A stretch of 45,525 nucleotides of DNA from an uncultured Gammaproteobacteria bacterium (lineage in GTDB: Bacteria > Pseudomonadota > Gammaproteobacteria > PS1 > Pseudothioglobaceae), in contig CACLHR010000010.1 of assembly GCA_902606745.1 (NCBI GenBank), positions 1-45,525 of the forward strand, in the 5' to 3' direction. The notes below the pieces were generated by a model. It did no database searches. It was not told the origin of the DNA and saw only the letters and a program-made list of their open reading frames with translations. Both the position numbers and the translations under genes were made by a program. This document shows, piece by piece, positions 2,950-27,951 of the stretch; the first letter of the stretch is position 1; every line of letters begins with the position of its first letter.

Positions 2950-4101
2950 TTAATATAGTGCATCAAGCTCTTGCCATGTTTCAGTCATATCAATAATTTC
3001 TCCCTTGATTCGACTTTCATCGATAGCCATCGCAACTAGACCTGCCTCTATAGCATCCTTAGGACCAACAGGCAATGAATCTGATTCACCACGAAGAAAT
3101 GCTATGATGTCTGCACACATTAATTGATCAGCACCATAATGAGCAGGATAATTTCCAGCAATTTCTGTACTTAAATAATTAAATTTGTGATCCTCTAGGC
3201 ACTTTCCTGTTCGTGCATCAGTGATTCGAAGATTGCCTCTCATGAAGTCCCCTTCTGCCATTCCACGACTACCAATAATACAAAAGCGTCGATGTTCGTC
3301 AGGAACATTAATACTTGTATGGAAAGAAAAACTAACATCGTTTGGATATTCTAATAATGCATTTTGATGGTCAACAATATCAGCGTCACTGGTAAACGGA
3401 TCATCGACACTTTCCCAGTATGATAGTTTTTGCTGATAAACGTCATCGTGCTTATTACCCGGAGATTCCTCAGGGATAAAATTGCCTCTTCCACCAAAAC
3501 TTGCAACTCTAGTCGGCCTCTCACCCACAACATTGTTATATATATCTAAGTCATGGCAACACTTTTCTAACATAAAGCCACCTGAATATTTTTCTAAACG
3601 GCGCCAGTCACGCATGAAAAATGACCCGTGATAGGGTGCAATATGTTCATTGGCTTCTATCGATGTAATTCGACCTAACATTCCTGCATCTATTACACGT
3701 CGTAATTCTCTCATGTGTTGGGAATAACGCAACACAAGACCCACAATTAGTTGGTTTTCACCGTGCTCATGTATTAATTCAGCAAGACTGAAGCTTTCTG
3801 ACTTGGTGATAACAATTGGTTTTTCTGTAAAAACTTTTAATCCTGCCTCTAGTCCGGCTCTGATATGTTCCAAATGAAGATGATTTGGTGATGCTACCCA
3901 AAGTAGGTCAAGGCTAGACTTGGCAATCAGAGTTTCTACACTTTCATGTTGCTGAAGTTGGTTCGCGATACCTTCAAGCAGTGATAATCCGCAAGGATCT
4001 GGGTCGACGTAACCGACCAATTCCAGCTCTGTCATATCGGCTTGCATCATCTTAAGAACATTGCCAGCCCTTAAACCTAAACCAACAATACCAGTTCTCA
4101 T
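2950..4101 (-). CDS. Gfo/Idh/MocA-family sugar dehydrogenase (second, KCCHD type)
   Basis: A 383-residue oxidoreductase, clearly distinct from the one at 1029-2069. The N-terminal Rossmann motif is VGLGLRAGNV, the EKP motif is at 93-95 (FTEKPIVITK) and the catalytic stretch is GGFMLEKCCHDLDI with K180, H183 and D184-D186. The KCCHDLD form is typical of a subgroup found in carbohydrate clusters. It lies 10 bases downstream of the ABC ATPase gene and 11 bases upstream of the TIM-barrel gene, so it should be co-transcribed. Having two different dehydrogenases suggests that one oxidises and the other re-reduces the same sugar after epimerisation. The exact substrate cannot be read from sequence. 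Confidence 0.85.
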   Translation of the reverse strand: MRTGIVGLGLRAGNVLKMMQADMTELELVGYVDPDPCGLSLLEGIANQLQQHESVETLIAKSSLDLLWVASPNHLHLEHIRAGLEAGLKVFTEKPIVITKSESFSLAELIHEHGENQLIVGLVLRYSQHMRELRRVIDAGMLGRITSIEANEHIAPYHGSFFMRDWRRLEKYSGGFMLEKCCHDLDIYNNVVGERPTRVASFGGRGNFIPEESPGNKHDDVYQQKLSYWESVDDPFTSDADIVDHQNALLEYPNDVSFSFHTSINVPDEHRRFCIIGSRGMAEGDFMRGNLRITDARTGKCLEDHKFNYLSTEIAGNYPAHYGADQLMCADIIAFLRGESDSLPVGPKDAIEAGLVAMAIDESRIKGEIIDMTETWQELDALY

Positions 4102-4111
4102 AATTATTCCC

Positions 4112-5212
4112 CTAACTAACCTCAGCTGCCTGTTTTCTGTGCAGTGCTATCTCTTGTGAATTAAATGCATGACACTTTGAAGAATCTATCAGCAAGTTGA
4201 TTGTTTGCCCAGGGTGAATTAAAGTATCTCCAGGCAATACGGCGCAAAAGTCATCATTACCAGCGGCTGAACCATAGATGATTGCTGTTGCACCTATATG
4301 CTCTACAACCTCTACATTCATTGACAATCCCTGATTATCGGAGCTAAGCATAAGGTCTTCAGGACGAACACCAAGCTCAATTGTATCCCCTGACTTTGTC
4401 CCTCCTATTTCTACAGGCAAAGAAATGTTTTCTGCACCAAGTTTCACTGTCAATTCGTTACTTTCAACAACAGTATTGTTTGTCTTTATAAAATTCATTT
4501 TCGGATGGCCAATAAAACCAGCAACAAACTTTGTTGTAGGATGGTGATACAACTCCATTGGTGCTCCAAATTGCTGTACTACTCCATCATTCAAAACCAC
4601 AATTTTGTCAGCCATAGTCATAGCTTCGATTTGATCATGGGTAACATAGATCATTGTGGTTTTTAAGTTTTGGTGTAGTTTAGCCAATTCGACCCTCATA
4701 TCTCCACGAAGGGCAGCATCTAAGTTAGAGAGCGGCTCGTCAAATAGAAAAACTCTGGGATTTCGAACAATTGATCTACCTATGGCGACCCTTTGGCGCT
4801 GGCCACCAGAAAGCTGTCCGGGCTTAAAATCTAAACGATCGGTTAATTGCAGTATTTCAGCAGCACGATCAACTCGCTGCTTTAATTCAGCTTCATTAAT
4901 TTTTGCAACTCTCAGTGGAAAGGCAATGTTTTCAAATACGGACAAATGTGGATATAGCGCGTAGGACTGAAATACCATAGAGATGCCACGATCAACCGGC
5001 TGTGCATTGGAAACATCCTCTTCATCAATAAATACCTTGCCACTAGAAGCCTCTTCTAAACCACAGATAATTCTTAGTAATGTCGTTTTTCCACAACCCG
5101 AAGGGCCAACAAAAACAACAAACTCCTTGTCTTCAATACCTAGGCTAATGTTATTTAAAACCTCGGTTTCACCAAAACTTTTAAAAATATTTTCCAGTTG
5201 CAAAGTCGCCAT
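4112..5212 (-). CDS. Sugar ABC transporter ATP-binding protein, MalK/UgpC type
   Basis: A 366-residue ATPase with the complete nucleotide-binding set: Walker A GPSGCGKTT (about 36-44), Q-loop VFQSYALYPH, signature LSGGQRQRVAIGR, Walker B VFLFDEPLSNLD and H-loop YVTHDQIEAM. A C-terminal TOBE/MalK-type extension follows (ELGVRPEDL region), characteristic of carbohydrate importers of the CUT1 group. It powers the permeases at 6685-8507. It is separated from the binding-protein gene by 183 bases with two strong stem-loops, and is tightly linked to the dehydrogenase genes downstream. An mscK-like or ugpC label would be only generic; the specificity is inferred from the hexosaminidase and nag genes. 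Confidence 0.92.
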   Translation of the reverse strand: MATLQLENIFKSFGETEVLNNISLGIEDKEFVVFVGPSGCGKTTLLRIICGLEEASSGKVFIDEEDVSNAQPVDRGISMVFQSYALYPHLSVFENIAFPLRVAKINEAELKQRVDRAAEILQLTDRLDFKPGQLSGGQRQRVAIGRSIVRNPRVFLFDEPLSNLDAALRGDMRVELAKLHQNLKTTMIYVTHDQIEAMTMADKIVVLNDGVVQQFGAPMELYHHPTTKFVAGFIGHPKMNFIKTNNTVVESNELTVKLGAENISLPVEIGGTKSGDTIELGVRPEDLMLSSDNQGLSMNVEVVEHIGATAIIYGSAAGNDDFCAVLPGDTLIHPGQTINLLIDSSKCHAFNSQEIALHRKQAAEVS

Positions 5213-5395: not shown

Positions 5396-6601
5396 TTACA
5401 GACCCTCGGCTAGAGTGTCTGCAGCCTCTGCCACTAGATCAGCAGCAGAACCTTCACCCAAGATCATGCCTTGGATGGCGCTGTTGATACCCATTTGAAG
5501 TGCTTTGAAGTCTTCAAATAATGGCTCAGGACCACCTCTACCGATTGGATCAACAAATACTTGCCAATAGTCAGTAGTGTAGTAGACATCATCCATCATT
5601 TTCTCATATTGCATAATTGGTGTTAAACCCCAACTCTTATCTAGATCGTATTGTGCTTCACCAGATGAAAGAGCAGCAGCTAACTCCATCGCAAGACCTT
5701 CATTAGCAGAACCTTTAAATACCGCAATTGAGTCAGTAATTAACAATGTACCGCTTTCGCCACTTGGTCCAGCTGGGATAGGTACAACTATCTCAGCAAT
5801 ATTAGCATTATGTTGACCACCGCCCCATGGGCCGTTGATATACATACCAATCTGACCATCGTTGTATAACTGAGTCAGTTGAGAACGCTCATATCCCATT
5901 GGTCCTTCCTGCGCAACACCAGCTAACTTACCGTAAAATTCTAGTGTCTCAACAGTCTCAGGACTGTTGAAAGTTATCTCACCAGTATCTGCATTACTTA
6001 CAGTACCACCATTGCTATATAGGTAGTTAAGGAATTGGTGCATAGTGTTGTCAAAGTCTTTAGCAGCTAAACCAATACCTGCAGCTGAGGTATTGTCATT
6101 AACAGCCTTAGCCATATTGTAAAGTCCTGTCCAAGTTCTTGGAGCAACACAAGCTTCACCCGCTGCTTCAACTAAACCACAGTTGATGAATAACGCTTTC
6201 GTTGAGAAAGCATGTGGAAAGCCCCAGAATTGCCCACCATCAGAAACAGTGGCAAGAATACCAGGCTGATACATTGCCTGTTGTGCATCTGGAATAGTGA
6301 CTGGAACAATCAAGCCACTACGACCTAGTTGCTTCAAGGTACGAGAGCCCATATATGCCAAACCAACTGGATCACCAGCAGCAGCTAGTGTTGTTGACTT
6401 GTCTTGACATGTGCCCCAAGGTACTGCTTCTGCATTAACTGTAACACCAGCATGGCTGGCCTCAAAATCAGCAATCACAGCTTGGTCAGCGGCACGTATT
6501 TCGCCACCACACATAATCATATGCACCTCTTCTGCTTGCACTGGTGCCATTAATCCTAGGCCCATAACAAGCAAGAAGAGTGTTCGCTTTATATATTTCA
6601 T
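5396..6601 (-). CDS. Extracellular sugar-binding protein of the ABC transporter (CUT1 family)
   Basis: 401 residues with a clear signal peptide (MKYIKRTLFLLVMGLGLMAPVQA, cleavage before EEV) and the features of bacterial family 1 solute-binding proteins: an early FEASHAGVTVNAEAVPW strand-helix-strand, NDGQIGMYINGPWGGG around the hinge and GLTPIMQYEKM near the C-terminus. It captures the oligosaccharide in the periplasm and hands it to the two permeases encoded just upstream. The start has a good ribosome site, AAGGAG, and a 9-bp inverted repeat lies upstream at 6632-6659. The flanking hexosaminidase and nag genes make GlcNAc-containing sugar the likely ligand, by inference. Confidence 0.9.
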   Translation of the reverse strand: MKYIKRTLFLLVMGLGLMAPVQAEEVHMIMCGGEIRAADQAVIADFEASHAGVTVNAEAVPWGTCQDKSTTLAAAGDPVGLAYMGSRTLKQLGRSGLIVPVTIPDAQQAMYQPGILATVSDGGQFWGFPHAFSTKALFINCGLVEAAGEACVAPRTWTGLYNMAKAVNDNTSAAGIGLAAKDFDNTMHQFLNYLYSNGGTVSNADTGEITFNSPETVETLEFYGKLAGVAQEGPMGYERSQLTQLYNDGQIGMYINGPWGGGQHNANIAEIVVPIPAGPSGESGTLLITDSIAVFKGSANEGLAMELAAALSSGEAQYDLDKSWGLTPIMQYEKMMDDVYYTTDYWQVFVDPIGRGGPEPLFEDFKALQMGINSAIQGMILGEGSAADLVAEAADTLAEGL

Positions 6602-6631
6602 TTTTACTTCTCCTTTATTTTTACATCAAGC

Positions 6632-6659
6632 TACCAGAAATAAATAATTTTTTCTGGTA
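6632..6659 (-). promoter_or_regulatory. 9-bp inverted repeat between permease and binding-protein genes
   Basis: TACCAGAAA (6632-6640) and TTTCTGGTA (6651-6659) can form a hairpin in the leftward transcript just before the binding-protein ribosome site. It may act as a processing or stability element. No promoter is obvious here. Confidence 0.3.
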
Positions 6660-6684
6660 ACGGTTTATGTGAGTATTTTACTTC

Positions 6685-7569
6685 TCACTCCTTTACTGCC
6701 CCCGATGTTAAACCTGCTATTAGATGTTTCTGCATAAACAGGAAAATAACTAACACGGGCAGAATTCCAATGAGGCTTGCCGCCATCATTTCGTTCCATA
6801 AAACTCTTTGATAACCAATAAACTCAAATATACCAGCAGGAAGTGGCATGTAATCTCTATCTTGGTTAAACGTAATTGCGAATAAAAACTGTTGTGCATA
6901 AGCGCCAATAAATATTGCAACACCAACGACAACTAAACCGGGAACTGCTAAAGGCAGAATCACTCTACGCAATGTATAAAGGCGTGAAGCTCCATCCACA
7001 AACGACGCCTCCTCTAATTCATACGGTATCTTCTCTAAAAATGATTTAAGTAGCCAGATTCCTGTTGGTACAAGAAATGCGACACCAGGAATAATCATTG
7101 CCCAATAAGTATTCAACATACCATACATTCGTAACAATTTATATAATGGAATGAGTAAAACCGCTCCAGAGAACATATTGACAGCTAAAAATAGTGTAAG
7201 ACTAATTGATTTTCCGCGAAAGCTAAAGCGTGCGTAGGCATAAGCAGCAGGAATCACAAAAATCATTGAGAAAATAGTAACCGCAGTGGCTAAAAATACA
7301 CTATTAAATATATATCGGCCTAGTTGTGGGACGGTTACCCACATATCTCTATAGGCTTGAAAACTCATTTTATCTGACCAAAACCTACTAATAAAATCAA
7401 CAAAGCTCATTGTTTCTCCAACTGGAACGTCAGGTCGACTAAATAAATGAGTTAATGGTCTCAATGATGCAGTGAACATTTCAACAAAAGGAAGCAACAT
7501 AAAAGTTAAAAATAGTGCGATTGAAACGTAAATTCCTATCTTGTGGAGTAATGAGTATTTGTCCATCAT
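6685..7569 (-). CDS. Sugar ABC transporter permease, MalG type
   Basis: 294 residues with about six membrane helices, the first at about 13-30 and the last at about 262-280. The cytoplasmic EAA loop that docks on the ATPase reads EEASFVDGASRLYTLRRVILPLAVPG, a canonical binding-protein-dependent transport inner-membrane motif. The length and C-terminal end (AGLTSGAVKE, the usual KG.T.GAVK form) match MalG-type permeases. The start overlaps the end of the partner permease gene by 4 bases, which implies translational coupling. Confidence 0.92.
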   Translation of the reverse strand: MMDKYSLLHKIGIYVSIALFLTFMLLPFVEMFTASLRPLTHLFSRPDVPVGETMSFVDFISRFWSDKMSFQAYRDMWVTVPQLGRYIFNSVFLATAVTIFSMIFVIPAAYAYARFSFRGKSISLTLFLAVNMFSGAVLLIPLYKLLRMYGMLNTYWAMIIPGVAFLVPTGIWLLKSFLEKIPYELEEASFVDGASRLYTLRRVILPLAVPGLVVVGVAIFIGAYAQQFLFAITFNQDRDYMPLPAGIFEFIGYQRVLWNEMMAASLIGILPVLVIFLFMQKHLIAGLTSGAVKE

Positions 7570-8507
7570 TTTGCTACCCCAGAATAGCCGAATTTTTTAC
7601 TAACTCTTCCTAACACAGCTAGGTAGATAAGAGAGAAAACACCTAAAATTAGAACAACAAGAACTGCTCGAGTTGCGCCCGCACCAAATTTATAACTGAA
7701 AATAGCTGTTTTGAAGGTATCAATTATGAGAGTGGTGGTTGCACCACGAGGGCCACCTTCGGTCAGAATCCAAATAATCTCAAAAGAATTAAAAGTCCAG
7801 ATAGCAGACAGTAAAGCCATAGTAACAACAGTAGGCATAATTTGTGGCATTGTGATTCTACGGAAACGATACCAACGTGAGGCGCCATCGACATAAGCGG
7901 CCTCATACAAATCTCTTGGGACACCCTGCATGGCAGCTAAAAAGAATAAGGTAACCATCGGCGTACCAATCCAAACGTCGGTCACAACTGCTGAATAAAA
8001 GGCACTTTGCTTGTAGCCCAAGAAGCTGAATGGTCCATCAGTTAAACCAATCATCTCCGCGAAATTTGAAAGGAGACCGAAATGACCATTGTATAACCAC
8101 AACCAACCAAAACAACCTATTGCTATAGGGATGATCCAAGGTGGCATAACTAATGCCCGGATAACTCCACGCGCCCTGATATTGCTTGCCAGCAAAGTGG
8201 CACCAATCAAGCCCAATATAATTTTTAACCCAACCGAAAGGAACATCCAATAAAAGGTTCGATTGACAATCGCAGGAAACTTGCGACCACCGAGTGCTTT
8301 TTCATAGTTAGCCCAACCGATATAATCTGCACCCTCTATTAAGGTCCCCAAGTTTGAATTTGTGAAAGAAAGGCGAAATGTTTCAACTAATGGCCATACA
8401 ACTATCAAAAACATATATATCGCTGCCGGGGCGATTAAAGCCCATGCAAAAAGAGTTGTTGTTTGTGCTTTAGTTTTTGGCCTGAACATTTGCAACAAAT
8501 CACTCAT
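7566..8507 (-). CDS. Sugar ABC transporter permease, MalF type
   Basis: 313 residues with six predicted membrane helices, starting at about 21-45 (IAPAAIYMFLIVVWPLVETF, the usual first helix of this group). The EAA loop is YEAAYVDGASRWYRFRRITMPQI. It pairs with the MalG-type permease to form the membrane channel. The first 8 bases overlap the end of the hexosaminidase gene, so permease and enzyme synthesis are tied together. The conserved stretch WTFNSFEIIWILTEGGP, found in CUT1 permeases, supports carbohydrate specificity. Confidence 0.92.
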   Translation of the reverse strand: MSDLLQMFRPKTKAQTTTLFAWALIAPAAIYMFLIVVWPLVETFRLSFTNSNLGTLIEGADYIGWANYEKALGGRKFPAIVNRTFYWMFLSVGLKIILGLIGATLLASNIRARGVIRALVMPPWIIPIAIGCFGWLWLYNGHFGLLSNFAEMIGLTDGPFSFLGYKQSAFYSAVVTDVWIGTPMVTLFFLAAMQGVPRDLYEAAYVDGASRWYRFRRITMPQIMPTVVTMALLSAIWTFNSFEIIWILTEGGPRGATTTLIIDTFKTAIFSYKFGAGATRAVLVVLILGVFSLIYLAVLGRVSKKFGYSGVAK

Positions 8508-18952: not shown

Positions 18953-20482
18953 TCATTCATATAATTTTCTTTCAACTACTATTCCAAGATCATGATTAAT
19001 TTCGTAATGAATATTTTTCCTATATGGAAGTTTAAAACCATAAGCACAATTTAAAGCAAACCTTATTGTATTTACATTTGTTTTTGGTAATCCGTATTTG
19101 TCAAAGCAAATTTCAGGTGCTTTAATAGCATTGAAAATGCTACCTGCAAATAGATATTTTTCCTTTTCAGTTAGTTCTAAATTTAAAAATTTTCTCAAGC
19201 CATGGTCACCCTGGAAAACAACTATTGCTTCTGGGTCTATATTGTTGATTTTCTCCATAAACATTTTTACTTTTTTCAATGTGCACTGGTACGATGCTTT
19301 ATAACCTTCAAAATTTTGATTAAAATAATTGGTTGGCTCACATTCATTTGTAACTAGATATGGCACATTTCCACCAGCGTCATTGATAAATGCAAAAAAT
19401 GGGGTTTTTGGCATACCATTTTTGTCAATGTATTTTAAAAACTCATCAAGTGAATCCGGTGTTCCAGTATTTTTATTTAAAATACGTTGGTAAATCTTAG
19501 GTAAGGGAGTGGTTAAATAAAAATTCCATATTTCTGGTGGGAAAATACTGTGTAATGGATTTAAACAAGTCCAACCAATTGAACGTCTGCAACCAAATTC
19601 TGGGTCTGCTTGCCAATAAAAAGAACTATTCGCTTTTTTTAAGTAAGAAAATAAGGGTATTTCATTGTGAGTGTTATACATCATGTGTGGCCAACTTGGG
19701 AATGCAGTTGAACTATCAGAATATTTTGTTGAACTGGGCTTACGATGATAATCGAGTAGCATCAAAGATGTCAGTGAAGACAGTGTATCAGTATATGATG
19801 ATTGACTTTTATCAATATATTTTAATTCAGTGTTTGATAATTTATCTATCACTTCCTCTTTTGTAACAATATTAAATGGTTCAAGAGTATCGATAGCCAC
19901 TAGTCTGCGAGCGATAATATAATATACATTGCGTTTTATTAGAACGGCATCTTGAGCATAAAGTCTGCTATTGATTTCATATGAAATTGTTGGTTTTTTC
20001 CCAATATCTTCAGAGAGATAGCCAACTAAAGGAATGAATGTATTAATTAACATGAGAATAGAGAATATAAGGATCATTCTTATTGAGAAGACATTGAATT
20101 TTGTTCCAAATGCAATAATTGCAAGGCAGCAAAGCTCAAAAAATATAAATACTAGTATTCCAATTGACCTACAGGAGCCTAACTTTAGGCATAGAAATTC
20201 TTCAAATGGTATGTAAAAAAAATTAAGATAGAAGGCGAAACAAAGCAGAGGAAATAGGATATTTTTTTTCTTGAAAAATCGCTTTATTAGCATTTCTACA
20301 CTTAATGAAATGATGAAAATTACAATAAGAAGGGCTATTAATGATAGAAAAATTTCTAATACAGCAGGTCTACTAAGTTGTTTTAAATTTTCTGGTGACA
20401 AATAAGTAAAAAAAGGTACGAAAAAAATTAGCAATCCAATAACTGTTGTTGATAATTTACTAGTAAGATTTATATTTAACAT
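18953..20482 (-). CDS. Membrane-anchored sulfatase/alkaline-phosphatase-superfamily enzyme
   Basis: 509 residues. Five membrane helices fill the first ~156 residues (about 10-27, 40-62, 74-93, 105-126, 131-156) and a periplasmic hydrolase/transferase domain follows. SYTDTLSSLTSLMLLDY carries candidate nucleophile Ser/Thr residues, and VVFQGDHGL (QGDHG at 424-428) is the metal-binding Asp-His of the superfamily. The layout is like LTA synthase and phosphoethanolamine transferases, which move phospho-alcohol groups onto surface polymers; hydrolysis of sulfate esters is the alternative. It follows the YLDPGTGS gene by 73 bases in one transcription unit and ends next to the left att site. Confidence 0.75.
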   Translation of the reverse strand: MLNINLTSKLSTTVIGLLIFFVPFFTYLSPENLKQLSRPAVLEIFLSLIALLIVIFIISLSVEMLIKRFFKKKNILFPLLCFAFYLNFFYIPFEEFLCLKLGSCRSIGILVFIFFELCCLAIIAFGTKFNVFSIRMILIFSILMLINTFIPLVGYLSEDIGKKPTISYEINSRLYAQDAVLIKRNVYYIIARRLVAIDTLEPFNIVTKEEVIDKLSNTELKYIDKSQSSYTDTLSSLTSLMLLDYHRKPSSTKYSDSSTAFPSWPHMMYNTHNEIPLFSYLKKANSSFYWQADPEFGCRRSIGWTCLNPLHSIFPPEIWNFYLTTPLPKIYQRILNKNTGTPDSLDEFLKYIDKNGMPKTPFFAFINDAGGNVPYLVTNECEPTNYFNQNFEGYKASYQCTLKKVKMFMEKINNIDPEAIVVFQGDHGLRKFLNLELTEKEKYLFAGSIFNAIKAPEICFDKYGLPKTNVNTIRFALNCAYGFKLPYRKNIHYEINHDLGIVVERKLYE

Positions 20483-20974: not shown

Positions 20975-20998
20975 ATAGTTTATTATGAAATAAATTTG

Positions 20999-22123
20999 AT
21001 GCTGAAAACTTTACAATATATATTGCATGCAAATGAATTTCTGCGCTTACCAAAGGTGAAGCGAAGAGTTGTTTTCTACTCCGAGGGGGAAAACTATTGG
21101 CCACTTTTTAAAGGCCTAATTGACGGAATTCTTGATCAGTCAGATCTGAATATCTGTTATATAAGTTCGGGAAAGGACGATCCTGGTTTTGAATATAGTG
21201 ATAATCACTTCAAATCATTTCTTATCGACGATAGTTATGTTCGTAATTGGCTCTTTGAGAATATGCAAGCGGATGTGTTGATTATGACAATGCCTGATCT
21301 TAATAATTATCAGGTAAAAAGATCTAAGCACCCCGTTCATTATATTTATTTGCAACACAATTTACTAAGTTTGCATATGTCATATCGGCAAGGTGCATTT
21401 GATTGGTTTGACACGGTGTTCTGTGCAGGCCCACATCATGTCCATGAAATTCGTTGTCTTGAAGAAAAATATAATTTACCGCAAAAAAAAATACTAGAGC
21501 ATGGTTATGCGAGATTGGACTCTATTATTAAGCATAAACAACCAGCAAAAGTTGATAATGAGTTCAAACACGCCCTATTCGCCCCATCATGGGGCAATAA
21601 TGCAGCGATTGAGTTGGGCTTTGGAGATCAAGTTGTTGAGAAGTTTCTATCTTTTGGATATAAAGTTACTTTGCGCCCCCATCCTGAAACTTTAAAGTCT
21701 TCTTCAAAAATAATTAGCAAAATAATCAGTAAGCATTCCAATAATAAAATGTTTATTTATGAGGAAGGTGTCTCCTCATTGGATTCATTTCATCAGTCTG
21801 ATTTTATGATTACTGACTGGTCAGGCGCCGCATTAGAATACTCATTCGGACTAAACAAACCAGTGATATTCCTTGATCTGCCAAAAAAGATTAATAATCC
21901 ATTGTATAAAGAGATTGATGTTATTCCACTAGAGGTTTCTGTCAGGGAAGATATTGGTGTTGTTGCTAGCGTAGATGATATAACTCCTTCATTAATTAGC
22001 TCACTACCTTATGGTAAAGTGGATCCAAGCAAATATGTATTTAATATTGGAAGATCTGATTTCTATGGTGTGAAATATATATTAGATTTGACAGATGATA
22101 TTTGCAATAAAAAATCCAACTAA
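20999..22123 (+). CDS. CDP-glycerol glycerophosphotransferase-family protein
   Basis: 374 residues from the ATG at 20999 (a TTG precedes it by one codon). The GT-B-like glycerophosphotransferase domain covers almost the whole protein: VVFYSEG at 24-30, H120 in YLQHN (candidate general base, like the His of TagF-type WHG), RPHPE at 226-230 and TDWSGAALEYSFGLNKPVIF at 272-291, which should bind the nucleotide-diphosphate donor. Family members polymerise or add glycerol-phosphate or ribitol-phosphate units for teichoic-acid-like polymers, capsules or LPS. It is paralogous to the N-terminal half of the fusion at 22261, which is encoded convergently next door. Confidence 0.82.
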   Translation: MLKTLQYILHANEFLRLPKVKRRVVFYSEGENYWPLFKGLIDGILDQSDLNICYISSGKDDPGFEYSDNHFKSFLIDDSYVRNWLFENMQADVLIMTMPDLNNYQVKRSKHPVHYIYLQHNLLSLHMSYRQGAFDWFDTVFCAGPHHVHEIRCLEEKYNLPQKKILEHGYARLDSIIKHKQPAKVDNEFKHALFAPSWGNNAAIELGFGDQVVEKFLSFGYKVTLRPHPETLKSSSKIISKIISKHSNNKMFIYEEGVSSLDSFHQSDFMITDWSGAALEYSFGLNKPVIFLDLPKKINNPLYKEIDVIPLEVSVREDIGVVASVDDITPSLISSLPYGKVDPSKYVFNIGRSDFYGVKYILDLTDDICNKKSN

Positions 22124-22260: not shown

Positions 22261-24210
22261 CTATGGATGCTCTCGGTAACTCTCGCCGTATAAATCCCTC
22301 AAGATTTCAAATGTGAGATCATCTACATGACCCTCAAAAATAATCTTTCCAGCTGAAATTCCTAGTAGCCTATTAGCAAATTTCTTCGCTAAATCAACTT
22401 GATGTAAACTTACAACAGCAGTTATAGACTTCTCAATACATATATCATTTAAAAGTGAAAGTATTTTCACTGAAATTGCTGGATCAAGACTAGCTACTGG
22501 TTCATCTGCCAATATAACAGTTGGTTCTTGAGTCAGGGCACGCGCAATACCTACTCGCTGCATTTCTCCTCCACTAAGATTTGAGACGCGCTCAAGTGAT
22601 TTGCTTAATAGGCCAACTCTATCAAGGGCTTCTAATGCAATCAACTTATCTTTTTTAGACCAGGGCATAAGACACTGTAAGTTTCCATGATGAGGCACCC
22701 TGCCAAGTAAAGCATTATGAAGAGCAGATTGACGACCAATTAGTTGATGTTGTTGAAATATCATAGCAGTTCGTCTTTGATGTGAATGCCATGATTTCTT
22801 ATCAGACAAATGTCCGTGTTCTTTAGTTGAAATAGACCCAGTAGATAAAGTGACAAGACCATTTAAAGCCCTTAACATAGTTGACTTGCCAGCACCTGAC
22901 GGACCTATTAAAACCGTAAGCTCTCCATCATAAATTTCAACATCACTTGCTTGCATTCCAATAACACCATTTGGATATGTGACACTAGCTTGATTAGTGC
23001 TTAAAAGAGTTATTGGTTTTACTAAATTCTTTTTATTAGCTGAGATATCATCTCGTTGAATTAAATCAAATAAATAATCAGCTCCAACTGAACCACTTGT
23101 TCCTAAATTAAAGACAGATTTCTTTCTTAATTTTGTAATATTCTTTTGAAAAGAATCATCAATATTGAGATTGGTGATTATATTTGGTATATCTGCTAGT
23201 TTTTCAGGGCTTACTATTTTGCCGGTTTTGGAGCGCATCTCCACTTCAAAAGCTGGCAAGTTGGTCGCGTTAAAATCTGCATTTCTAACTCTAATTGGGA
23301 CATCAATATATACTACAGGCTTGAGAAAACCAAAAGCATACTCAAGTGCAACACCAGAAAGGTCACTTATTAAAACATCTGAGTCTATTAAGGAACTAAT
23401 CGATGATAAATCCTTTTCTATCTTAAAAGTTTTGTATGTTTTTTGTCTTTCTGTAATTTTAGAAATTAATGAAGGATTATTGTTTATAGTCATCCAATGC
23501 GGTCTTAGTGTAACTGCAATGTTAGCTTCAGCAAGAATATTCAATAGATTACAGCAGAATTCACCATTATCAATTTCTAATAAACTATGTTGGCCATATG
23601 TTGGAGCGATAACAACATGCATGTCCCTTTTTTTTGTCTTCAAATTTTTAGGCTCTTGCTCGAAGGCGTCTAAAATATTTTCCAAATGGCCATACCCACA
23701 TTCAATTATTTCTTTTTGTTTTAGTCCGTAGTGATGCTCTATAGCTTTTAATTCATTATGCTGGTGAGGCCCTAAGCAAAGTATTGAATCGTAATAATCA
23801 AAGGCATCATGCATATATCCCATATGCGCACTAATAAGAGTGCTGAATACATAGGCATAATGAACATCATAAGGTGAACGGATAAAATTAAACTTACCTA
23901 AATCAGGCGTTGTTGTAACAAAAATCTTAAACTGCAAGGTTTGAAAAAAAACAGTTCTAACTTTGTCATAACCTATATAGTAAGGAAAAATATTTTTATT
24001 TTTATTTGTTAATATAGAATCAGTGTGATCAGATGTTATGTAATAAACCTCTATGTTATGAATATTTATTAACTCATTAATAATGTTAGAATAATGATTC
24101 CAATCCGAGCCTCTTTCTGCATAAAAAGCAATTTTTTTATCAATCTGATCAAGTTCTTTTATTTGTTGTAAGCTCTTTTCGGCTTCTAACGATAATTGAT
24201 GATTATTCAT
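22261..24210 (-). CDS. Fusion: glycerophosphotransferase-like domain + PhnC-type ABC ATPase
   Basis: 649 residues with two domains. Residues 1-385 resemble the protein at 20999 (TPDLGKF, LGPHQHNELKAIEHHYGL, RPH at 236-238, ISDLSGVALEYAFGFLKPVV at 281-300). Residues about 405-645 are a complete phosphonate-type ABC ATPase: Walker A GPSGAGKS at 436-443, Q-loop IFQQHQL, signature LSGGE at 545-549, Walker B VILADEP at 565-571 and H603. The paralogue's H120 aligns with S123 here, so the transferase domain may be inactive or binding-only. It is the last gene of the PhnD-PhnE-Sat operon, 35 bases after Sat, and supplies that transporter's ATPase. I know of no described fusion of this kind. Confidence 0.85.
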   Translation of the reverse strand: MNNHQLSLEAEKSLQQIKELDQIDKKIAFYAERGSDWNHYSNIINELINIHNIEVYYITSDHTDSILTNKNKNIFPYYIGYDKVRTVFFQTLQFKIFVTTTPDLGKFNFIRSPYDVHYAYVFSTLISAHMGYMHDAFDYYDSILCLGPHQHNELKAIEHHYGLKQKEIIECGYGHLENILDAFEQEPKNLKTKKRDMHVVIAPTYGQHSLLEIDNGEFCCNLLNILAEANIAVTLRPHWMTINNNPSLISKITERQKTYKTFKIEKDLSSISSLIDSDVLISDLSGVALEYAFGFLKPVVYIDVPIRVRNADFNATNLPAFEVEMRSKTGKIVSPEKLADIPNIITNLNIDDSFQKNITKLRKKSVFNLGTSGSVGADYLFDLIQRDDISANKKNLVKPITLLSTNQASVTYPNGVIGMQASDVEIYDGELTVLIGPSGAGKSTMLRALNGLVTLSTGSISTKEHGHLSDKKSWHSHQRRTAMIFQQHQLIGRQSALHNALLGRVPHHGNLQCLMPWSKKDKLIALEALDRVGLLSKSLERVSNLSGGEMQRVGIARALTQEPTVILADEPVASLDPAISVKILSLLNDICIEKSITAVVSLHQVDLAKKFANRLLGISAGKIIFEGHVDDLTFEILRDLYGESYREHP

Positions 24211-24245
24211 TATTTATTTGGTTAAAGTTAATTAGACATAGCAGT

Positions 24246-25319
24246 TCACTCTGGTACAAACATATTATTTGAATATATTGCTTCAATAACCTCAGGCCGC
24301 ATAACATAAGGAGGAGGTCTAAGGCCAGCTAAAAGTAATGAACGAATCTTAGTGCTACTAATATATTCAATTGAATCAGGGTCACTCGAAATATGCCTGC
24401 ATGCACTTTTATTTGTTATGGTATTACAAATCGAACAATAGTATGGTTCTTTGTATTTAATAATCTTTATTCCCAATGCATCTTCATATTTTGTGCAAAG
24501 ATTTTGAGAATCATATATATCATAATAATTATTCACTCCAGCATGGTCTCTTCCAATAATTATGTGGGTACATCCATAATTTCGACGTACTAATGCATGA
24601 AATAATGCTTCACGTGGACCAGCATAACGTCCGGATGTTGTTAACGCACTTAATATAACCCTATTCCTAGGATAATATTTAGATATTAAAAACTGATACC
24701 CATTAATTACAGCCATCGGAAGAAAATCCCCTGGCTTCTTTTGACCCAATATAGGCTGAATTAATAATCCGTCATACGATTCCAGAGTCATTCTTTGTAA
24801 CCACTCATGCGCACAATGTGGAGGGTTACGGGTGTGAAATGCAGCTACTGTATTCCATTTTTTTTCTTTGAATATAGCCTTTGTCTGACTGGGAGTTAAT
24901 TCATAACGTGAAAGTTCATGAAGTATTCTTTTTTTTATTGCAACTCTACCGCCAATGAAAACTTCTTTAGTTTTATAAAAAGCATTAACACCAGGGTGCT
25001 GTATGTCATCTGTACCATATATTTTTTTTGCGCATTTTTTTTTATCACATGAAAATATACTCTCTACTAGCATCTCACCAATTAAATTATCATCGTATAG
25101 TAATTTAACATTAGAATTAATTTTAAGATCATTTGCACTTTCCTTCGATATATCAAGGAAGATGGGCATACTAAAGAGTCTGCCATCAGGAAGTATATAG
25201 TTATCTATTACACTATAAAATTCATTTTCAGTCATAAATCCACTTAGTGGATGATATGAACCATTGGTAATTTTTTCTACTTCAAAAAATTGATTTTGAT
25301 TTAATGCAACTTCCTTCAT
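24246..25319 (-). CDS. sat: ATP sulfurylase-family protein (sulfate adenylyltransferase)
   Basis: 357 residues, slightly short for a stand-alone Sat. The N-terminal PUA-like domain opens with SYHPLSGFMTENEF. The catalytic domain has FHTRNPPHCAHEW (161-173; the two His of HxxH are H168 and H171), GRDHAG at 256-261 and ISSTKIRSLL at 320-329. A zinc-type site C295-x2-C298-x8-C307-x-H309 matches bacterial ATP sulfurylases. Usual Sats have Q-T-R-N; here the Gln is H162. Sat makes APS from ATP and sulfate, or ATP from APS in sulfur oxidisers. It lies 32 bases after PhnE with no APS kinase or reductase nearby, so its substrate in this operon is open. Confidence 0.85.
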   Translation of the reverse strand: MKEVALNQNQFFEVEKITNGSYHPLSGFMTENEFYSVIDNYILPDGRLFSMPIFLDISKESANDLKINSNVKLLYDDNLIGEMLVESIFSCDKKKCAKKIYGTDDIQHPGVNAFYKTKEVFIGGRVAIKKRILHELSRYELTPSQTKAIFKEKKWNTVAAFHTRNPPHCAHEWLQRMTLESYDGLLIQPILGQKKPGDFLPMAVINGYQFLISKYYPRNRVILSALTTSGRYAGPREALFHALVRRNYGCTHIIIGRDHAGVNNYYDIYDSQNLCTKYEDALGIKIIKYKEPYYCSICNTITNKSACRHISSDPDSIEYISSTKIRSLLLAGLRPPPYVMRPEVIEAIYSNNMFVPE

Positions 25320-25351: not shown

Positions 25352-26158
25352 TTACTTCAGTCGATTACGCAATGCCGATCCTGATAAGTCAATAGCAGTT
25401 ACCATTACTAGAATTATAATAAGAATTGCAGAGACTTCATCATATCTCATAAGCCGCAAGGATCCAACTAATTCAGAACCTATACCACCTGCACCTACCA
25501 TTCCCATAACGGTTGAAGCCCTAAAATTGTATTCCCACCTGTAAATACAGAGGTCAGCACCCTGCGAATATAGCTGTGGCAAGATCGCATATCTAATAAC
25601 TTGCAGTCTTGATGCTCCAGTTGCTTGAGCGGCTTCGATAGGATGTGGATCAAGATGTTCTATTTGCTCAGCAAAAAACTTCCCCATCATTCCTGCGGAA
25701 TGAAGCCCCAAAGCCAGAACTCCAGGCAACGCTCCAAAACCAACTGCCGCCACGAAAATTATGCCCATAATTAACTCAGGTATAGCTCTTAAAAGATTTA
25801 GGATTACTCTACTTACTGAATATATAATTTTATGTGGTGACGTATTGTTGGCTGCCAATAGCCCTAGAGGAAAAGATAATATAAGAGCTAAAGCAGTACC
25901 AGCAATACTCATAACCAGAGTATCAAATAATGGTTCAGTCCATTTTTTTACTTCATTGAAATTTGGTGGAATCATCTCTTTAAATAAAATGCCAATCGAT
26001 GGCATACCTTCGAGCATTCTTTCTTTATCAAAGAACTCAACCAAATAAAAACAGGCTAGAACAATGCCAATAAATATAAGTGTTTGAAAACTTTTTTTTA
26101 CTAATGATTTTTTTTCACTAGCTAATATATTTTGAATTATTGAGTTTGGTTCTTTCAT
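25352..26158 (-). CDS. phnE: PhnE-type ABC transporter permease
   Basis: 268 residues with a first helix at about 23-43 and five more helices. The inner-membrane-component motif EAAQATGASRLQVIRYAILPQ (about 177-197) and YRWEYNFRASTVMGMVGAGGIG are hallmark PhnE sequences. It forms the membrane channel, probably as a homodimer, for the binding protein encoded upstream and the PhnC-like ATPase in the fusion protein. Phosphonate, phosphite or another oxyanion could be the substrate; no C-P lyase or phosphonatase is in the window. The gene is separated from PhnD by 228 bases with a terminator. Confidence 0.88.
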   Translation of the reverse strand: MKEPNSIIQNILASEKKSLVKKSFQTLIFIGIVLACFYLVEFFDKERMLEGMPSIGILFKEMIPPNFNEVKKWTEPLFDTLVMSIAGTALALILSFPLGLLAANNTSPHKIIYSVSRVILNLLRAIPELIMGIIFVAAVGFGALPGVLALGLHSAGMMGKFFAEQIEHLDPHPIEAAQATGASRLQVIRYAILPQLYSQGADLCIYRWEYNFRASTVMGMVGAGGIGSELVGSLRLMRYDEVSAILIIILVMVTAIDLSGSALRNRLK

Positions 26159-26386: not shown

Positions 26387-27253
<867 letters not shown>

Positions 27254-27421: not shown

Positions 27422-27721
27422 CTAAGTGCTTGTGCTTGTGCCTGCTCCAGCTACTAACTCAATTACAGTTGGCGCGGAATTCTCAGGTGGGCTAACCCAT
27501 AACTCTTGTAACTTGAGACGAGGATAGGTGTACTTAGCTATCTCTTTATAACAGTTAATCCTTTGGTCAAGGGTTGCCTCATCAGATTCAGCTATTTCAA
27601 TTAGCTTCTGGATTGGGTTAACATCCAACTCAAGAAGTAAGTCATCTGCTTTGATAAGAGTTACTTTATTAGGTGTTCCTTTCTTTCTTCCACCTACTTT
27701 TGAGTGTCCTTTTTCAAACAT
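27422..27721 (-). CDS. Small phage-like protein (99 aa), function unknown
   Basis: 99 residues. The N-terminus, SKVGGRKKGTPNKVT, has the G-R-x-x-G-x-x-N-K-x-T motif seen at the start of many small phage and mobile-element proteins, including some terminase-small-subunit-like and DUF5681-type proteins. The middle (ATLDQRINCYKEIAKYTYPRLK) is helical and matches the common phage phrase on repeated cycles through cell or plasmid proteins. The tail is low-complexity (GAGTSTST). It is the gene nearest the tRNA, where an island integrase would normally be, so it may be a leftover of the element's mobility module. Confidence 0.6.
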   Translation of the reverse strand: MFEKGHSKVGGRKKGTPNKVTLIKADDLLLELDVNPIQKLIEIAESDEATLDQRINCYKEIAKYTYPRLKLQELWVSPPENSAPTVIELVAGAGTSTST

Positions 27722-27754
27722 AGTGAATTAATAGTAATAATTTAGTTAAATTTG

Positions 27755-27870
27755 CCATAAAGGCTTTCATAACAATAATCTTATTGTGCTCTATAATTAT
27801 GTCAATATGTAATCCCAGTGTAATCCCAATAGGATTTACTGTTTATTAAAATTTGCTGAAAGCCTTATGG
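27755..27870. repeat. Inverted repeat around the putative arm sites
   Basis: CCATAAAGGCTTTCA (27755-27769) and TGAAAGCCTTATGG (27857-27870) are reverse complements apart from one extra A. They enclose the paired TGTAATCCC motifs and end next to the tRNA 3' end. They could be part of an attP-type recombination site. Confidence 0.4.
27808..27827. repeat. Paired TGTAATCCC direct repeats next to the tRNA end
   Basis: TGTAATCCC occurs at 27808-27816 and at 27819-27827, exactly 11 bases apart, so both copies face the same side of the helix. This is typical of arm-type integrase sites. A degenerate pair lies beside the left att copy. Confidence 0.45.
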
Positions 27871-27874
27871 GATA

Positions 27875-27951
27875 TGGTGGTTATGGGTGGACTTGAACCA
27901 CCGACCCCAGCATTATGAATGCTGTGCTCTAACCAGCTGAGCTACATAACC
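27875..27951 (-). tRNA. tRNA-Met (CAT), elongator; right attachment site
   Basis: 77 nt with CCA encoded. The acceptor stem is GGTTATG/CATAACC, the D-arm contains AGCTCAGCTGGTTAGAGC, the anticodon stem is CAGCA/TGCTG around TTCATAA (anticodon CAT), and the T-arm is GTGGTTCAAGTCCAC. The body resembles E. coli elongator tRNA-Met (GTAGCTCAG, TCATAATG, TGGGGTC) more than tRNA-Ile2, though the CAT anticodon alone does not separate them. Its 3' 45 bases (27875-27919) are the island's right att core; the element has kept the tRNA intact. Confidence 0.93.

Follow-up and report, generated by a model that had tools for sequence, protein, structure and literature searches.

Regulatory domains are known at the C-terminus of ABC importer ATPases. 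In the PtxABC phosphite importer, the binding protein PtxB (structures 5o2j and 5jvb) binds methylphosphonate and phosphate more weakly than phosphite, according to the available sections of PMC5700983. Among the CDP-polyol transferases of the TagF/TarF/CpsA type (PF04464), TagF has a likely catalytic base in H444 and a second histidine, H584, that is bound to the donor pyrophosphate, and in Cps7A, a family member with transferase activity, a tyrosine occupies the base position (both from the available part of PMC11666461). The Pnt phosphonate-tailoring clusters have been described with PntC (PMC6697681), and the word glycerophosphotransferase is absent from that paper's main text. Here, we analyzed a window of 45,525 nt from a metagenome-assembled genome (MAG; 63 contigs, 82.5% complete) of an uncultured gammaproteobacterium of the family Pseudothioglobaceae, in which the ATPase of a PtxABC-type importer appears to carry a TagF-like transferase domain at its N-terminus. 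The genome is small, and its contents and family make-up are suggestive of the SUP05/Pseudothioglobus group of marine bacteria.

The gene is located on the minus strand at 22261..24210 and is a single open frame of 649 codons that starts with an ATG at 24210, whereas the plus strand over the same positions is full of stops. At the local base composition, the chance of a 649-codon open frame is about 8e-20, and the 390 codons of the N-terminal domain are open with a third-position GC like that of the neighboring genes. This domain (residues 1-390; 23041..24210, minus strand) matched PF04464 Glyphos_transf at residues 155-301 with 30.1 bits, which passes the Pfam gathering cut-off of 22.1, and the C-terminal domain (residues 395-649; 22261..23028, minus strand) matched PF00005 ABC_tran at residues 422-573 with 100.9 bits. 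The NCBIfam model TIGR02315 for PhnC covered residues 403-642 with 260.5 bits, slightly below its cut-off of 266.1, and the same model gave 268.1 bits for the stand-alone PhnC in the sister locus L010. The Walker A (GPSGAGKST, 436), Q-loop (FQQHQL, 485), signature (LSGGEMQ, 545), Walker B (ILADEP, 566) and switch histidine (SLHQ, 601) motifs are all present and place the ATPase part in the PhnC/PtxA type. An earlier note on this DNA had read an uninterrupted 649-codon frame holding a transferase and an ATPase with its PhnC-type motifs complete; the frame, the Pfam and NCBIfam matches and the motif positions from 436 to 601 confirmed both points for the sequence as assembled and placed the gene on the minus strand. 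AlphaFold, with 15 alignment rows, gave mean pLDDT values of 65-97 over the first 39 ten-residue blocks and a poor model of the ATPase half (block means of 28-57), which two alignment rows cover. The four top PDB matches of the N-domain in Foldseek were TagF entries (E 5e-11 to 1.5e-10) with moderate TM-scores of 0.51-0.55 by target length, and other GT-B proteins, including UDP-GlcNAc 2-epimerases, were close behind with TM-scores up to 0.65.

Gene order in L010, the closest sister locus, matches that of the window: PhnD, PhnE, Sat and PhnC are followed by a convergent transferase and a sulfatase-like gene. In L010, PhnC is a separate gene of 262 aa. The protein identities between the two loci were 81% for PhnD, 90% for PhnE, 81.5% for Sat, 86% for the PhnC part, 83% for the convergent transferase and 62% for the sulfatase-like protein, and the dN/dS values, in the same order, were 0.121, 0.076, 0.140, 0.127, 0.138 and 0.334. 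These values showed that the ATPase part of the fusion and the Sat homologue are under purifying selection. The leader between sat and the fusion (24211..24245, minus strand), taken with ATGAATA, resembles the phnC leader and start in L010; the DNA from sat to the next gene is alike in the two loci through ATGAATA and divergent afterwards. Since the fusion and the L010 phnC have the leader and the ATG in common, the transferase domain, which separates the former phnC start from the rest of phnC, looks as if a gene had been inserted just after the ATG. The record that holds L010 (CAJXYM010000009.1) is titled Flavobacteriales, and a transfer across phyla by way of this locus was considered and ruled out by GlmS and a survey of the record's family. 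The GlmS of the L010 record was 86% and 81% identical to those of two genomes of the window's genus, and the only one of 52 genomes of the family with these genes was the one that holds L010 itself. For these two reasons, we read L010 as probably a mis-binned contig of the window's genus. The bin contains a second GlmS fragment, 94% alike, and may be mixed, so absences there count for little.

The fusion was found in one of the 29 genomes of the genus. When these genomes were searched with the N-domain at 1e-3, the two matches were the source genome and a fragment in G020 at a contig edge, 81% identical to the window's convergent transferase. The whole fusion as query against 95 related genomes (1e-40, at most 12 candidates scored per genome) also gave two matches, the source genome and a stand-alone transferase in G031. 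N-domain homologues were present at 1e-15 in 12 of 369 genomes of the class, the source genome included, and the frames in the other 11 were 380-458 aa long and too short for a fusion. The fusion as query against genome contigs led to 57 loci, and 53 of these, some of them near-copies of one another, had a PhnC better than 1e-40. None of the 53 had a transferase domain joined to PhnC, where four (L025, L041, L052 and L061) start too near PhnC to reveal an upstream domain, and the N-domain query matched in L010 only, at its separate convergent transferase. The list of loci rests on short exact peptide patterns, and a diverged fusion could therefore be missed. A candidate second fusion in L056, with 532 open codons upstream of PhnC, was rejected as the shadow of an antisense gene, recognized by eye as a mannose-1-phosphate guanylyltransferase, and nothing was recognizable by eye in the 158 open codons upstream of PhnC in L055. 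Viral contigs searched with the fusion gave no relative, the best 5000 plasmid records held no single place that covered 80% of the fusion query, and plasmids searched with the N-domain alone gave no match. We found no description of the layout in the open-licence literature, and no such operon is reported in the available parts of PMC12718374 and PMC4046663. The earlier note, which knew of no described protein with this layout, had stated that PhnC normally stands alone, and the 53 loci (four of them too short) agreed with this. No family of such fusions emerged from these loci or from the other 11 genomes in which a homologue of the domain was present. As far as seen, the fusion is confined to one lineage, and no other ABC importer ATPase that carries a glycan- or teichoic-type transferase was found.

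The operon runs from PhnD over PhnE and the Sat homologue to the fusion. The PhnD position is occupied by a PtxB-like binding protein (26387..27238, minus strand) and the PhnE position by a PhnE/PtxC-type permease (25352..26158, minus strand; TIGR01097, 293.6 bits, cut-off 216.7). The best solved relatives of the binding protein are PtxB proteins, with 339 bits to Ps PtxB, and it scored 204 bits against the phosphonate model TIGR03431 PhnD, below the cut-off of 261.1. Alignment to 5o2j and 5jvb, using the site residues named in the available sections of PMC5700983, showed that all eight phosphite-site residues checked are kept (D39, Y72, Y117, S147, T148, S149, H177 and the capping Y225). Because the binding protein is PtxB-like and has all eight residues, a point that the earlier note had not foreseen, phosphite is the likelier cargo; the importer probably carries phosphite, and methylphosphonate or phosphate is possible. 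A PtxD homologue was found in 38 of the 53 PhnC loci and none in the other 15, some loci being short, and the homologue in L040 is a phosphite dehydrogenase with 425 bits to 4e5p. There was no PtxD among the ORFs of the operon, no phosphite dehydrogenase was found in the 82.5% complete source genome, where the best match to the L040 PtxD had 25% identity and 92 bits, and no PtxD was found in the possibly mixed L010 bin.

The importer operon adjoins a tRNA-Met gene (27875-27951) and an orphan ORF of 99 aa without a Pfam match (together 27422-27951), a setting that looks as if it were part of a mobile island. The genome encodes a second, stand-alone PhnC. Elsewhere in the genome (L084, G000:C5), a single ORF at 3209-4336 combines the integrase arm-binding N-terminus PF13356 with NTP_transf_3 and adjoins the second PhnD/PhnC set, and PhnD-like and PhnE-like parts were seen by eye in one long ORF at 6056-7609.

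A second Glyphos_transf gene (20996..22123, plus strand; Pfam, 40 bits) stands alone in the window, is convergent with the operon and keeps the conserved histidine. A recent tandem duplication of this gene was ruled out as the source of the fused domain by an identity of about 33% and by the tree, which carries a long-branch warning and groups the convergent transferase with those of L010 and L092 (100/99) and not with the fused domain. The ORF at 18953..20482 (minus strand), also present in L010 (62% identity), has a weak match to the sulfatase superfamily in Pfam (20.3 bits, short of the cut-off of 25 bits). A large protein is encoded alongside the stand-alone transferase at 167-2041 in L100, 8369-10180 in L101, 6700-8454 in L103 and 18953-20482 in the window; the one in L103 matches Pfam Sulfatase with 39.4 bits, and those in L100 and L101 were judged by eye only.

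Of the 11 further genomes that contain a relative, eight (L099-L105 and L009) were examined for the surroundings of the transferase, and PEP mutase or nucleotidyltransferase genes were near it in six of them. In L103, a cytidylyltransferase-PEP mutase, a TPP enzyme and an Fe-ADH directly precede the transferase. NTP_transf_3 genes are adjacent to it or one gene away in L099 and L104, a cytidylyltransferase-like gene is adjacent in L009, a class V aminotransferase and an NTP_transf_3 gene are about 5 kb away in L101, and an NTP-transferase-like gene was recognized in L102 by eye only. The stretches seen around the transferases of L100 and L105 contained no phosphonate gene. With the L103 PEP mutase as query, the source genome (82.5% complete) matched in the cytidylyltransferase part alone, with 22.7 bits, the L010 bin gave 35.1 bits, again to that part only, and G020 gave nothing. 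G028 matched the mutase part at 29%, and this match may be another member of the superfamily.

Residue 123 of the fusion is a serine (codon AGC), whereas all 13 aligned relatives in the 14-member alignment have a histidine. By motif and order, as opposed to a residue-level structural alignment, S123 is the counterpart of TagF H444 (in WHG), and H238 of the RPH motif, invariant in the 14-member alignment, is by the same means the counterpart of H584. The fused domain kept R236, H238, D283 and S285 and carries the substitutions H123S, H171C, W205Y and W284L. It lost 11 of the 58 columns that are invariant among nine close relatives, compared to six of 53 in the next worst of the ten. Measured against all 13 relatives, its losses came to three of 14 invariant columns, and the remote L097 and L098 had lost more (4/15 and 8/19, respectively). 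The tree gave the fused domain an end branch of 1.67, compared to a median of 0.41, and did not resolve its position. The absence of the base-position histidine, the long branch and the loss of more conserved residues than in close relatives make normal catalysis doubtful, and, as judged from the alignment, catalysis is likely to be impaired or altered. The missing histidine is no proof of inactivity, since the active Cps7A has a tyrosine at that position. The earlier note had suggested that the fusion anchors polymer-unit chemistry to the transporter, and the catalytic form of this idea is weakened by S123 and the 11 lost columns. The note's other suggestion, a transferase domain that serves as a sensor or docking module, may still apply.

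To account for these observations, we propose that a TagF-like transferase gene, one of a kind that often neighbors phosphonate-tailoring genes, was inserted in frame just after the start codon of a PtxABC-type importer ATPase gene. Every ATPase subunit would then carry a transferase domain at its N-terminus, on the cytoplasmic face of the membrane. The ATPase would still drive the import of phosphite, or of a small phosphonate. Its passenger would keep the donor pocket and no longer catalyze normal transfer. Docking or sensing is favored because the domain retains residues of the donor site but has lost the base, and the passenger may thus be a docking or ligand-sensing module that links uptake to the adjoining surface-tailoring genes. 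If so, nutrient uptake would be tied to the tailoring of the cell surface. As a whole, the statement of a genuine one-lineage fusion with phosphite-type import and a non-catalytic docking or sensing passenger is the best explanation that we can offer, and it is held tentatively, at somewhat less than an even chance. Counted in its favor were the open frame and its domains, the gene order and leader shared with L010, the dN/dS values, the eight PtxB residues, the PtxD homologues in 38 of 53 loci, the six of eight transferase contexts, the lost residues and long branch, and the retention of R236, H238, D283 and S285. Counted against it were the single genome, a MAG in which one missing base could hide two overlapping genes, the tyrosine of Cps7A, the three of 14 lost columns, fewer than in L097 and L098, and the contexts in L100 and L105.

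Two other readings of the passenger were weighed. The in-frame insertion may have been a neutral accident in which a transferase already in decay became attached to the ATPase, so that the passenger is tolerated without a role. A fusion in only one of 29 genomes, a long branch with lost residues and a second stand-alone PhnC in the genome fit such an accident, which we nevertheless consider unlikely: the 390 codons are open with a neighbor-like third-position GC, the N-domain was modeled confidently with TagF as the best match, and R236, H238, D283 and S285 are kept. These four residues also speak for a transferase that is active and tethered to the importer; the imported substrate would be activated, and the ATPase-attached domain would then pass it on to a glycan or lipid of the surface. 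Phosphonate-tailoring genes are found close to several homologues, the convergent second transferase and the sulfatase-like gene adjoin, and an active member of the family has a tyrosine at the base position (Cps7A; available part of PMC11666461). Because PEP mutase was not found in the source genome (one query; 82.5% complete), the cell would need to import any phosphonate, in agreement with such a role. Set against the serine at a position where 13 of 13 relatives have a histidine, the 11 of 58 lost core columns and the long branch, an active transferase at the importer is doubtful, and we rate its chances as low.

As sequenced, there is no in-frame ATG, GTG or TTG for the ATPase part between codons 376 and 418. 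When one base was added near the junction, 60 of the 99 positions tried yielded an independent ATPase start that lay 7 to 22 codons ahead of the normal one, with the transferase then forming a separate, overlapping gene; a single-base assembly error could therefore mimic a fusion. On this reading, the assembly lacks one base close to the junction and the organism has two separate overlapping genes, an account in line with a single instance on a MAG contig and with the stand-alone PhnC of L010. In contrast, the removal of one base near the junction restored an ATPase start at none of the 99 positions, and six gene pairs compared between the window and L010 were of near-equal length with zero frameshifts in about 2,000 codons, from which the error rate seems low. 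Even with two separate genes, the transferase would still be new at this position in the operon. We consider such an artefact improbable, and the join, as a rough estimate, very probably genuine.

The remaining gene of the operon encodes an ATP-sulfurylase (Sat) homologue of 357 aa (24246..25319, minus strand), assigned by Pfam, NCBIfam and PDB alignments. It scored above the NCBIfam cut-offs for PRK04149 (414.6 versus 387) and sopT (326.1 versus 322.95), with a match that starts at position 33 of the PRK04149 profile, and it keeps HxxH and GRDHAG. It reads FHTRNPPH where the others examined have FQTRN. The glutamine of the Q-T/L-R-N motif, which we take to be the sulfate-contacting residue, was present in all 30 other Sat genes examined (the 29 best-scoring other matches in the class and the genome's own second Sat) and in the four PDB alignments shown for the homologue. 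Within this sampling of class genomes and the PDB, the change from glutamine to histidine was found only in the window (24246-25319) and in L010 (3536-4606). Two stretches on viral contigs contained the FHTRNPPH pattern, and neither was a Sat by eye. Since the importer, an activating enzyme and transferases lie in one cluster, PtxD was not found and the Sat glutamine is changed, we also considered that phosphite imported by the PtxB-type transporter might be activated with ATP by the altered Sat, giving a mixed anhydride that corresponds to APS with phosphite in place of sulfate, and that the TagF-like transferases might then place the H-phosphonate on a surface polymer, a route that would replace oxidation by PtxD. 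This reading is independent of the join, and we give it very little credence. If true, it would be an unrecognized use of phosphite, with one of the transferases forming part of the importer. The operon as a whole may be of greater importance than the join, and independently of it: a phosphite-type importer with an altered Sat, with phosphite dehydrogenase not detected, kept in two related loci, offers a candidate for an alternative fate of phosphite within the phosphorus redox cycle.

A comparison with the known systems showed a likeness and a difference in each case. The fused domain resembles the TagF/TarF/CpsA-type CDP-polyol transferases (PF04464) in its Pfam match, in TagF as its best PDB fold matches and in the retained RPH histidine, and differs from them in the serine in place of the base-position histidine and in being joined to an ABC ATPase. 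The Sat homologue resembles ATP sulfurylase (8a8d and 1v47) in passing the family cut-offs and in HxxH and GRDHAG, and differs in the histidine in place of the QTRN glutamine and in being encoded in an importer operon. Compared to the Pnt phosphonate-tailoring clusters (PntC; available part of PMC6697681), broadly the same gene company surrounds six of the eight transferase relatives, whereas in the window an importer, and not biosynthesis, lies beside the transferase, and PEP mutase was not found in its genome. Finally, the locus shares with the PtxABC phosphite importer (PtxB structures 5o2j and 5jvb) a PtxB-type binding protein and a permease and ATPase of the PhnE and PhnC families. In contrast to PtxABC, PtxD was not found, a Sat homologue is part of the operon, and the ATPase has a transferase domain at its N-terminus.
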